This document shows, piece by piece, positions 54,357-57,379 of a stretch of 64,000 nucleotides of DNA. How positions within the stretch are numbered: position 1 is the stretch's first letter; every line of letters begins with the position of its first letter. Below the pieces are notes generated by a model. It was not told the origin of the DNA and made no database searches. It saw only the letters and a program-made list of their open reading frames with translations. Position numbers and translations under genes: made by a program. Origin of the DNA: Candidatus Nitrososphaera evergladensis SR1 (lineage in GTDB: Archaea > Thermoproteota > Nitrososphaeria > Nitrososphaerales > Nitrososphaeraceae); the NCBI RefSeq assembly GCF_000730285.1, contig NZ_CP007174.1, forward strand, positions 1,240,001-1,304,000. The letters are read 5' to 3'.

Positions 54357-54866
54357 ATGATTAGAGCTCCAGAAATAACGGCATTAAGAGAAGAAGAAGA
54401 GCAACGCAGTGCGCGAAAATACATCTTCAAGCCGTCAATCCGGCCTGCCTCTGAGCTCAAAGGGCACAAAGACGGTCAGGGAACAAGATATGTGTTTGTG
54501 GATAGCAAGCTGGTGCCTGCCGCAAACTTTTACACTATTGTACGGGTCGTCAAGAATGTTAAAGAAGACAAGATTAGCCACGTAGACATTCACAAGCATG
54601 ATTGCGACAGTGCTTTCATCTTTCTTGGCGATTCGCCCAATTTTGAAGGGTTGACCTGCGAGGTGATGCTGGATGATGAAACATTTACGGTTCAAAGCCC
54701 TGCAACGGTGTACATTCCTGCTGGGGTGATGCACACATACAGGTTCATCAGCGGATCCGGGATGTACTGGAACATTGTTTTGTCCGGCGACTATAACTCG
54801 AGGACTATGCTGCAGCAGCAATCCATCCCGTTTGCTGCTGGGCGGAAGGAGATTATTCAGCCCTAG
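54357..54866 (+). CDS. Cupin-domain protein
   Basis: A 169-residue cupin. The barrel begins ISHVDIHKHDCDSAFIFLGD (metal His pair) and the second motif is SPATVYIPAGVMHTYRFISGSGMYWNIVLSGD (final His). It starts 1 nt after the PrpD stop and probably belongs to the same transcript. Cupins act as isomerases, decarboxylases or dioxygenases; without residue tests the reaction is open. End overlaps the convergent zinc-ribbon membrane protein by four nt. Confidence 0.78.
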   Translation: MIRAPEITALREEEEQRSARKYIFKPSIRPASELKGHKDGQGTRYVFVDSKLVPAANFYTIVRVVKNVKEDKISHVDIHKHDCDSAFIFLGDSPNFEGLTCEVMLDDETFTVQSPATVYIPAGVMHTYRFISGSGMYWNIVLSGDYNSRTMLQQQSIPFAAGRKEIIQP

Positions 54867-55183
54867 AATCCCGCCTTTTTCATCTTGGATCCGCAGTTTG
54901 GGCACGACACCTTGTTGTGCTTGGTGCCGCAGTTTATGCAGTAATAGTGGACGCCGCCCTCATTCTTTTGGTCAAAGGGGTTTCTAAACAGCGAGCCCTG
55001 CTGCCGTCCAATCTGCTTCATAAAGCGGTATCTGCGGTAGTACGCAATGCCAAAGATGACTGGCAGTAGCACCATGAGCGAGTATGGAAAGTCGATGAAC
55101 ATGGTGATTACGATGCTTATTGCAAAGTAGATTCCAAGCCAGAGGATCTGCTGGTACAGGAACCGCTTTGCGCTTGCGTCCAT
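54863..55183 (-). CDS. Membrane protein with C-terminal zinc ribbon
   Basis: A 106-residue protein. Two TM segments (about 12-52: ILWLGIYFAISIVITMF and FPYSLMVLLPVIFGIAYY) are followed by a basic stretch and a zinc ribbon (CINCGTKHNKVSCPNC; CxxC...CxxC). It may be a small membrane-associated regulator or assembly factor. No name. Confidence 0.65.
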   Translation of the reverse strand: MDASAKRFLYQQILWLGIYFAISIVITMFIDFPYSLMVLLPVIFGIAYYRRYRFMKQIGRQQGSLFRNPFDQKNEGGVHYYCINCGTKHNKVSCPNCGSKMKKAGF

Positions 55184-55475: not shown

Positions 55476-57311
55476 TTACTGTTCTTCTTCCTCCTCCACA
55501 AAGTCAAGGAGCGTCCGCTGCGCCTCATGCCTTCCGGGGTGGGCCAGGTTGGTGACGCGCAGGCCGACCTTTCTTACCGGCGCGTCAAGGTCGAACCTGT
55601 CGACCAGCTGCGGAATTGCCGCAAGGATGCTCTCGCGCCTTTGCTGCGGGCCCTGGTACGACATCTCCCTCGTCTCGACGGAAAAGTCGGACTTTACTAT
55701 TTTTACCCCCACCGTACGGAACAGGTAGCCTCTGCCTGCCACCCTGTCGTACAGCTCGTCACAGAGGGCGGTCAGCTCGGCAAGGACTTGCTTTCTGTCC
55801 TTCGCATACACCTCCAGGCTGTGCTCGGTGCTTATCGAGACATGGTCCTCCCTTGGCACTACAGGATCGCTGTCTGCGCCCGTTGCCACCTGCCACATCC
55901 ACAGGCCGTTTCTGCCAAAGCGCGACGTCAGCTTTTGCACGTCGCACGCCGCAAGCTGGCCTATGGTGGCAATCCCTATCTTTTTCAGCTCCTGCTGGGT
56001 CTTGGGGCCGATGCCGGAGATCCTGCCAACCTCAAGGGGCGCAAGGAAATCCTGCAGCCTGTCTGGGTAGACCACGGTGACCCCGTCAGGCTTTTTGAAA
56101 TCTGATGCTATCTTGGCCGCCGACTTGGACGGCGCGACCCCTATTGAGACTGACAGGCCGCACCTTTCCCTTATCGCCCTCTTGACGGACGATGCATACT
56201 CGTAAGGGCTTGCGTCGCCGGCGGCCTTTGAAGTGCAGTCCAAAAACGCCTCGTCGATGCTCGCCTGCTCTATCACGTCTGCAAACCCTGAAAGGACCTC
56301 CATCACCTTCTCGGATACCTGCTTGTAGTACGCAATGTCCACTGGCCGAAGCTCCATGTCGGGGCACAGAGCTATTGCCCTTGCAAGCGGCATGGCCGAC
56401 CTGACGCCAAACCTGCGCGCCTCGTACGAGCAGGACGATACCACTCCCCGCGTTATCTTGCCAGCGGGCTGGTCGGTCATTATCACGGCGTGCGGCCTGC
56501 CCTTGAGGGCCGGCTCGCGTAACTCCTCGCAGGAAGGGTAAAAGGCGTTGAGGTCGACGCAGAGCACCATCCTGCTGCCGGCTGACCATCTTGGTGCAGG
56601 CACGGGCAGGGCAGGCGCAGGCATGGGGCCTGCATACTTGCGCTCCGGCAGGCCGAGGTGCCTGAGCGCGGCGTTTGCGCCCTGCGGGCTGTCTGCGATT
56701 ATTATCGACATGTCGACCTGGCTTTCTTCTTGCCCTGCTTCTTTGAGGGCGATTTCAAGCTCGGCCTTCCAGTTGCCGCCGTCGCCGGCAAGCCTCAGAA
56801 AGATGAAATCTGACGTGATGGCCGCCCGTGCATTCATGCCGCTCCTCCAGTACATGGAAGCGCCGTGCTTTCTCAGGATGTTGTACGTGGTATCCTGAAA
56901 CCACGAAGGGTGGGCAAAGTCAAGGATTGCCGAATAGCCGTGGTATGTGCATGTGGCAAGCACTCTTTCCAGCCATTTCTGTCCGTCCTGAAGCGCAAGA
57001 CCCCGTGGCGCCCTAATTACTACTGCAAGCGTCTTTTCCTCTATCGGCCTAAAAGCTTCAAGCAGGTTTGAAAGCGCGCTACCCTCTTCTACTATAGTAG
57101 TGGTGGCCTGCTCTGGTATCCTGACCACAAAGCGAAAGCCTTCCGGCGTCTCGCGCGCCCACCTCCAGAACGAGTGCTCGTAGGTGGCCGGTACGCCCAC
57201 CTCGACGACGTCAAACACCCGGGAATAATGAGAAAGGTACTCCTTTGGCGCAAGCGCCTGCGGGTAAAAGTTGCCAAACCTCCATCCCGCGCACCCTACG
57301 AAATGCCTCAA
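55476..57311 (-). CDS. DUF72 domain fused to DNA polymerase IV (Y-family)
   Basis: A 611-residue fusion. The N-terminal DUF72 domain (about 1-225) has FVGCAGWRFGNFYP, FRFVVRIPEQAT and LDFAHPSWF. A Pro/Ala linker (about 228-245) joins Y-family polymerase IV (about 248-590): metal D253 in VLCVDLNAFYPSCEE, catalytic SIDEAFLD, GIGPKTQQELKKIGI (HhH thumb) and the little finger. The C-terminus EAQRTLLDFVEEEEEQ contains a PIP-like QxxLxxF motif that would bind PCNA. Y-family enzymes copy past DNA lesions. The covalent link to DUF72 is unusual; DUF72 is of unknown biochemical role. Confidence 0.9.
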   Translation of the reverse strand: MRHFVGCAGWRFGNFYPQALAPKEYLSHYSRVFDVVEVGVPATYEHSFWRWARETPEGFRFVVRIPEQATTTIVEEGSALSNLLEAFRPIEEKTLAVVIRAPRGLALQDGQKWLERVLATCTYHGYSAILDFAHPSWFQDTTYNILRKHGASMYWRSGMNARAAITSDFIFLRLAGDGGNWKAELEIALKEAGQEESQVDMSIIIADSPQGANAALRHLGLPERKYAGPMPAPALPVPAPRWSAGSRMVLCVDLNAFYPSCEELREPALKGRPHAVIMTDQPAGKITRGVVSSCSYEARRFGVRSAMPLARAIALCPDMELRPVDIAYYKQVSEKVMEVLSGFADVIEQASIDEAFLDCTSKAAGDASPYEYASSVKRAIRERCGLSVSIGVAPSKSAAKIASDFKKPDGVTVVYPDRLQDFLAPLEVGRISGIGPKTQQELKKIGIATIGQLAACDVQKLTSRFGRNGLWMWQVATGADSDPVVPREDHVSISTEHSLEVYAKDRKQVLAELTALCDELYDRVAGRGYLFRTVGVKIVKSDFSVETREMSYQGPQQRRESILAAIPQLVDRFDLDAPVRKVGLRVTNLAHPGRHEAQRTLLDFVEEEEEQ

Positions 57312-57379
57312 GTGCAGAGGAGCTTGCTCCGGCCCTTATAACGTGGGAGACACTTCCGGGAGAGGGGGAGAGGTGCTTC

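Follow-up and report, generated by a model that had tools for sequence, protein, structure and literature searches.

Why does an archaeal DNA polymerase carry a DUF72 barrel at its N-terminus, and what can this arrangement tell us about DUF72? The question is raised by one gene in a 64,000-nucleotide stretch of Candidatus Nitrososphaera evergladensis SR1 DNA (hereafter called the window), which comes from a 2.95 Mb genome assembled as a single contig. DUF72 proteins (PF01904), to which we take YecE to belong, are widespread and have solved structures, and we know of no function assigned to them. An earlier note on the window held that covalent fusion to a lesion-bypass polymerase implies a DNA-damage-related role for DUF72, a family that it described as having no known biochemistry. 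The description needs tempering, as predictions exist: one computational study puts TM1631 forward as an endonuclease acting on DNA lesions (PMC3828134).

Results

A single frame joins a DUF72 barrel to a Y-family polymerase

The gene is a single unbroken frame on the minus strand of the window, running from 57311 to 55476 including the stop codon (55476–55478), and it encodes 611 amino acids. We place its start at a TTG codon because all 21 fusions compared have a start codon at this position or one codon earlier (17 TTG, 3 ATG and 1 CTG), and because a TATA-like hexamer, TTATAA (57336–57341, minus strand), is centred ∼27 nt upstream of it. The orthologue in genome G132 has the same hexamer at the same spacing. 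The position of the hexamer would fit a leaderless archaeal transcript.

The features that follow all lie on the minus strand. Residues 1–222 (56646–57311) form a degenerate DUF72 TIM barrel, identified by Pfam (residues 16–180, model positions 1–165 of 217, E 2e-23, 84 bits against a cut-off of 25.3) and by comparison of an AF2 model with solved structures. A Pro/Ala-rich linker (residues 223–246; 56574–56645) connects the barrel to the polymerase; it is variable in the alignment and includes the lowest interior pLDDT of the model, at residues 233–236. Residues 247–592 (55536–56573) constitute a Y-family DNA polymerase IV (DinB), with Pfam matches to IMS (residues 252–404, E 2e-43, the full model 1–148 of 148), IMS_HHH (residues 416–447, model 1–32 of 32) and IMS_C (residues 492–592, model 3–101 of 109). 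The NCBIfam DinB model PRK02406 is passed at 291.6 bits (cut-off 256), and a fold search matches the fusion model to a Dbh–Dpo4 chimera (Z 29.7) and to a DinB–DNA complex (Z 29.6). Motif I, which reads VDLNAFYPSCEE, and SIDEAF are both intact. The catalytic carboxylates, Asp of motif I and Asp-Glu of motif III, are likewise kept across the set, the motif I pattern and SIDEA[FY] being present in 24 of the 24 complete fusions, counts that leave out L035, which is cut by a contig end.

Like DNA polymerase IV/DinB enzymes of the Dpo4–Dbh group, the fusion has an IMS domain, a thumb HhH, a little finger, the catalytic motifs and a PIP-type tail. It differs from them in the added N-terminal DUF72 barrel and linker, ∼246 residues in all, and in the reading of its motif I, VDLNAFYPSCEE; the NAFY within this motif is known from UmuC. 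The gene is that of a DNA polymerase of the lesion-bypass (DinB/Pol IV) type, with an activity predicted from its domains and motifs.

The protein ends in a low-pLDDT C-terminus (below 50 at residues 601–611 in the AF2 model) that includes QRTLLDFV (residues 598–605; 55497–55520), directly followed by EEEEEQ. This tail has the conserved Q-x-x-[LIM]-x-x-[FY] pattern of a PIP box, and Q[KR][TS]xxD[FY] occurs in the last 20 residues of every complete fusion (24/24). We regard QRTLLDFV as a putative PCNA-binding PIP motif. In these respects our analysis bears out the earlier note, which had described one frame that joins DUF72 to a complete Y-family polymerase and closes with a tail of the PCNA-interacting type.

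The fused genes of genus g2 (L036, L037, L039, L040, L044, L046 and L049) have a variable polymerase insert, tens of residues long, after the SIDEA motif. The genome also encodes a second, ordinary DinB without DUF72 (L007, G000:C1:1405942–1406406), whose open frame overlaps a neighbouring one that we recognised by eye as resembling phosphoglycerate kinase. Downstream of the fusion, at 54863–55183 on the minus strand, lies a gene whose short product has a C-terminus bearing two CxxC pairs; the gene is kept in the nearest relatives only, and a Pfam search of the product gave no family.

The fusion is real and old

A sequencing error that joined two genes would produce the same frame, as the earlier note had recognised. 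We turn to a survey of 300 genomes of the class, supplemented by checks of open reading frames. Within Nitrososphaeraceae, the window's own family (f1), the fusion is present in 22 of the 45 sampled genomes, in one frame in 21 of them and split over two contigs in G248. The G132 orthologue is 90% identical to the fusion and intact, 22 further complete fusions are also intact, and none of the 24 complete copies has a break in the frame. The presence of intact orthologues in so many genomes rules out a sequencing error. A protein search with the fusion returned 13 relatives, named as Nitrososphaera, Nitrososphaeraceae and other thaumarchaeal groups. This is a real fusion, and an old one. It is also not universal in the family: seven of the 45 genomes (G121, G194, G285, G082, G201, G231 and G276) have a polymerase from this group that carries no DUF72, and we found neither form in 16, several of which are incomplete assemblies.

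The gene neighbourhood of the fusion is conserved within the genus only, and beyond the genus we found no conserved repair-gene neighbourhood. On one contig of an uncultured member of the Nitrososphaeraceae, a Ku gene (PF02735, E 3.2e-46; L013:1071–1877) lies ∼3 kb upstream of the fusion. A link to defence systems was considered and dropped, since PADLOC gave no family for the fusion or for a DUF72 encoded next to dinB. Copies of the fusion on plasmids or phages were also considered and set aside: among at least 5000 matching plasmid records, not one has a single place covering 80% of it. The 25 matches listed among plasmid records correspond to the polymerase half; DUF72 alone has matches in 187 plasmid and 21 phage records. 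In one of the phage records, that of the provirus Pro-Nvie1 (FR725450.1), the DUF72 (66–836) lies at the record's edge, where the annotation gives the sequence as archaeal host. In the open-access literature that we found, including the available parts of PMC11791011, PMC5797428 and PMC10811736, there is no report of a DUF72–DinB fusion. Both halves are known families; it is the architecture, and the degenerate state of the fused DUF72, that this literature does not report.

Loss of the presumed active site in the fused DUF72

The phosphate-site residues of Tm1631, as given in the available part of PMC3828134, are N44, K72, Q114, R145 and R191. We aligned 55 DUF72 rows with Tm1631, leaving out L076 (a DUF72 of under 200 aa, also left out of the tree), and all five of these letters fell in register. 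In Tm1631 numbering, E42, Y48, K72, T78, H79, E143, R145 and R191 are present in each of the 34 unfused rows. The 21 fused rows have no equivalent of H79, a single equivalent of R145, and four each of Y48 and T78. At the R145 position the window's protein has A133 (56913–56915). Other positions are partly retained: E42 in 11/21, R191 in 12/21, K72 in 8/21 with Arg in 11 more (K or R in 19/21), and E143 in 11/21 with Asp in eight more (E or D in 19/21). The Asn239 equivalent is found in 32/34 unfused rows versus 2/21 fused ones, D or N at position 44 in 33/34 versus 11/21, and Q at position 114 in 33/34 versus 7/21. Every fused row (21/21) has gaps where the FNNH loop would have its His and Gly. 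Most pocket positions vary even inside the fused set.

Compared with the DUF72 family (PF01904; TM1631/1vpq and EF0366/1vpy), the fused domain has the core motifs GW, FYP, W..TP..F.F and SW. It differs in its diverged C-terminal fifth, in the absence of the FNNH loop, in the loss of His79, Arg145 and Tyr48 from most copies, and in its attachment to a polymerase. Sequence and fold both place it in DUF72 (PF01904), and the pocket residues do not; it is a member of the family by descent and fold, not by pocket. The earlier note had called this DUF72 domain complete. That is correct for the fold, which has eight strands in the AF2 model, but not for the conserved residues, given that the Pfam match ends at position 165 of 217 and that the residues of the presumed active site are missing. 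Judged from the alignment, that site no longer exists in the fused DUF72. Given this loss, and given that seven genomes of the family have the polymerase alone, the view that the fused copy reveals how DUF72 acts as an enzyme is not supported.

Might the barrel still have enzyme activity, using a rearranged pocket to process lesions or the ends of DNA beside the polymerase? Its fold is intact, it is under purifying selection (see below), and E143, K72 and R191 are retained in part, in the proportions given above. Set against these points, almost none of the 21 copies keeps His79, Arg145 or the FNNH loop, and most pocket positions vary from one fused copy to the next; we consider a surviving enzyme quite unlikely.

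The barrel keeps its fold under constraint

The AF2 model of the fusion (mean pLDDT 88.7, pTM 0.66) has all eight barrel strands. A fold search with the whole model gave only polymerases among the matches listed, so we folded the barrel alone (pLDDT 80.5, with seven strands assigned at a minimum of three residues). Its best solved matches are 1vpq (Z 20.4, rmsd 2.7 over 214 residues), 1vpy (Z 19.7) and 1ztv (Z 19.4), all of them DUF72 proteins; the next match has a Z of 14.0. TIM barrels of the Endonuclease IV type are of the same barrel class, but the match to Endonuclease IV (5zhz, Z 12.9), a fold comparison alone, is far weaker than those to DUF72 (Z ∼20) and level with those to sugar epimerases (13–14). 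No UV-damage endonuclease is among the best 50 barrel matches listed, a result that excludes nothing.

Across 11 pairs, NG86 dN/dS is 0.11–0.23 for the DUF72 part and 0.10–0.28 for the polymerase part. In most pairs the fused barrel has changed more quickly than the polymerase: identities are 53% versus 74% between the window's genome (G000) and G137, and 85% versus 92% between G000 and G132. Several residues are conserved in the fused copies specifically. R60 is present in 21/21 fused domains versus 2/17 related unfused DUF72s, Q139 in 21/21 versus 1/17, and W113 in 21/21 versus 0/17. W113 lies in a stretch (residues 107–125; 56937–56993) that has fused-only conserved positions at 110, 111, 113, 123 and 125. 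By these comparisons the fused DUF72 is under purifying selection and has new invariant residues. Together, the retained fold, the constraint and the fused-only residues would argue for a new, non-catalytic use of the barrel rather than for decay.

Decay is nevertheless what a second reading proposes, in which the barrel is a passenger, a neutral fusion on its way out that has been kept because it is harmless. This reading draws on the lost pocket, the seven of 45 family genomes whose polymerase has no DUF72, the faster evolution of the barrel in most pairs, and, just ahead of the L016 polymerase, what may be a vestige of the barrel's final strand and helix (E 0.017). It is opposed by the low dN/dS across the DUF72 domain, by the residues conserved in fused copies only and by the frame that stays open in 24/24 complete fusions, and we judge it unlikely. 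Upstream of the polymerase-only genes L017, L031, L033 and L034 we found no convincing DUF72 remnant.

DUF72 and dinB are neighbours in genomes without the fusion

If DUF72 and the polymerase were associated before they were fused, genomes lacking the fusion might have the two genes side by side, a check that the earlier note had proposed. This is what we found in 14 genomes of f4, f7 and f12, three other families of the window's order, where an unfused, full-length DUF72 (Pfam model 1–216) lies directly upstream of dinB on the same strand. There are 15 such pairs (two in G200), from 11/16 sampled genomes of f4, 2/5 of f7 and 1/1 of f12. The gap between the open frames is 3 to 29 nt in the ten pairs with listed ORFs, and in L038 the two genes share a frame that is interrupted by just one TAG. 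In f2 genomes DUF72 and dinB are far apart, among the matches listed. Outside the order, no DUF72–IMS pair within 5 kb was seen among the matches listed for the samples of the phylum (131 genomes, read by eye).

In a polymerase tree of 50 rows, with three g8 polymerase-only genes left out, the fused polymerases and those of the operon pairs group together (100/100), apart from general DinB, which includes the gene at G000:C1:1405942. Two polymerase-only genes (L089 and L017) are nested among the fused polymerases on starred branches, where losses would be expected to lie; three others (L086, L033 and L092) are at its unresolved base. The fused domains are a single group in the DUF72 tree, with a long stem (1.28), and this group is placed with the stand-alone DUF72s of the same family (97/91). 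A direct line from the operon partner to the fused DUF72 that leaves out the stand-alone proteins is rejected at p-AU 0.009, a value to be read with caution given the long fused stem and the naming of the groups after a first tree had been seen. Because a group of fused and operon domains only is rejected, the fused copy is probably derived from a duplicate of the family's stand-alone gene, and not directly from the operon pair. The stand-alone sibling in the window's own genome is broken. Its pieces (L003–L005, at G000:C1:1552302–1552906, outside the window) are in different frames, belong to the same clade as the fused domain and are each closest to L062; intact relatives are found in other genomes of the family.

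PIP-like tails on unfused DUF72s

In this clade the C-terminal tails of unfused DUF72s include EQQTLFGS, KQASLGDF and KQSSISDFFE. We scored Q..[LIVM] within the last 12 residues, adding 80 DUF72 loci sampled from the class and the phylum and leaving out L126, which is open at a contig end. The pattern is present in 10/10 operon DUF72s and 7/7 stand-alone clade members, but it was chosen after these 17 tails (17/17) had been seen; 8 of the 11 further clade members, assigned later by BLAST, have it as well, and the three misses (L127–L129) are from outside the class. Overall, it is found in 25 of 28 unfused clade DUF72s, which are related to each other and so do not amount to 28 independent observations, versus 13/188 unrelated ORFs; in other DUF72s the counts are 5/17 and 6/68, and shuffling the tails gives a mean of 4.7 and a maximum of 11 of 28. 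The stricter Q..[LIVM]..[FYW] is present in fewer of them (2/10 operon, 3/7 stand-alone and 3/11 BLAST-assigned DUF72s), and we call the tails PIP-like because many of them are without the full aromatics of a PIP box.

The polymerases of the operon pairs mostly have no tail Gln (Q..[LIVM] in 1/10), as if clamp contact in these pairs were made by the DUF72 partner. The PIP-like tails of the stand-alone proteins suggest that DUF72 is a candidate sliding-clamp client. A second archaeal type of DUF72, of ∼390–425 aa (for example L103, L104, L105, L107 and L114–L118), has a C-terminal extension of ∼130 residues (CKH...W.F) in place of a PIP-like tail.

These tails bear on a third alternative, that the barrel is a dimerisation or solubility module with no link to damage. 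A conserved flat patch of TM1631 is read as a homodimer interface in the available part of PMC3828134, which is in keeping with such a role. A generic module would leave unexplained, however, why stand-alone DUF72s of the clade adjoin dinB and carry clamp-type tails, and we hold this alternative to be improbable.

A link between DUF72 and a bypass polymerase is also described for PolB2. In the available text of PMC11791011, DUF72 genes, together with SRAP genes, are enriched near polB2 in a neighbourhood that comprises PolB2, iRadA and PPB2, and clamp-binding motifs occur on one or other subunit of the PolB2 complexes. The PolB2 neighbourhood differs in that its polymerase is of the B family and in that no DUF72 fusion is described in that text.

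Discussion

The reading that we favour, with a probability of roughly 0.55, is that a bypass polymerase has here captured a DUF72, now without its pocket, as a docking module, and that the fusion arose in a lineage already pairing DUF72 with the polymerase. The fused DUF72 is probably a non-catalytic module for docking to DNA or to a partner protein.

Such a history could have run as follows. In an ancestor within the order, a catalytically intact DUF72 and dinB would have stood side by side, as they do in living genomes, and the two proteins probably worked jointly on the sliding clamp. In the Nitrososphaeraceae, a copy of DUF72 would then have become fused in frame to the polymerase, giving the gene now observed. 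Freed of its own task, this copy would have lost the pocket, kept the fold and gained conserved residues, as its sequences and model indicate. The C-terminal PIP motif, by binding PCNA, could bring the fusion to stalled forks, where the barrel might hold the polymerase near the damaged template or near another repair factor. The module would be useful and not essential, its usefulness being suggested by dN/dS, and so it is absent from several lineages.

Several observations count against the docking view: the pTM of 0.66 of the fusion model, the faster evolution of the barrel in most pairs, the seven polymerase-only genomes, the lack of a wider repair neighbourhood, the rejection of direct descent from the operon partner, and a PIP assignment that is based on a motif. 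The damage-related role put forward in the earlier note is reasonable as a matter of association, drawing as it does on the recurrence of the fusion, the adjacency of the unfused genes, the PIP-like tails and the enrichment near polB2 (in the available text of PMC11791011). What finds no support is the use of the fused copy as a guide to DUF72 enzymology.

A broader proposal, which we advance tentatively and at less than even odds, is that DUF72s across the class are clamp-bound partners of DNA polymerases that process or recognise lesions and are encoded beside a bypass polymerase, and that in Nitrososphaeraceae a pocket-less copy was hard-wired to the polymerase as a module for docking to lesions or partners. 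If this is true, DUF72, so far without a role, would gain one. The fusion, the adjacency and the clamp-type tails turn a vague question about DUF72 into direct tests, and the intact-looking and pocket-less versions of one barrel make a natural pair for finding the chemistry of DUF72.
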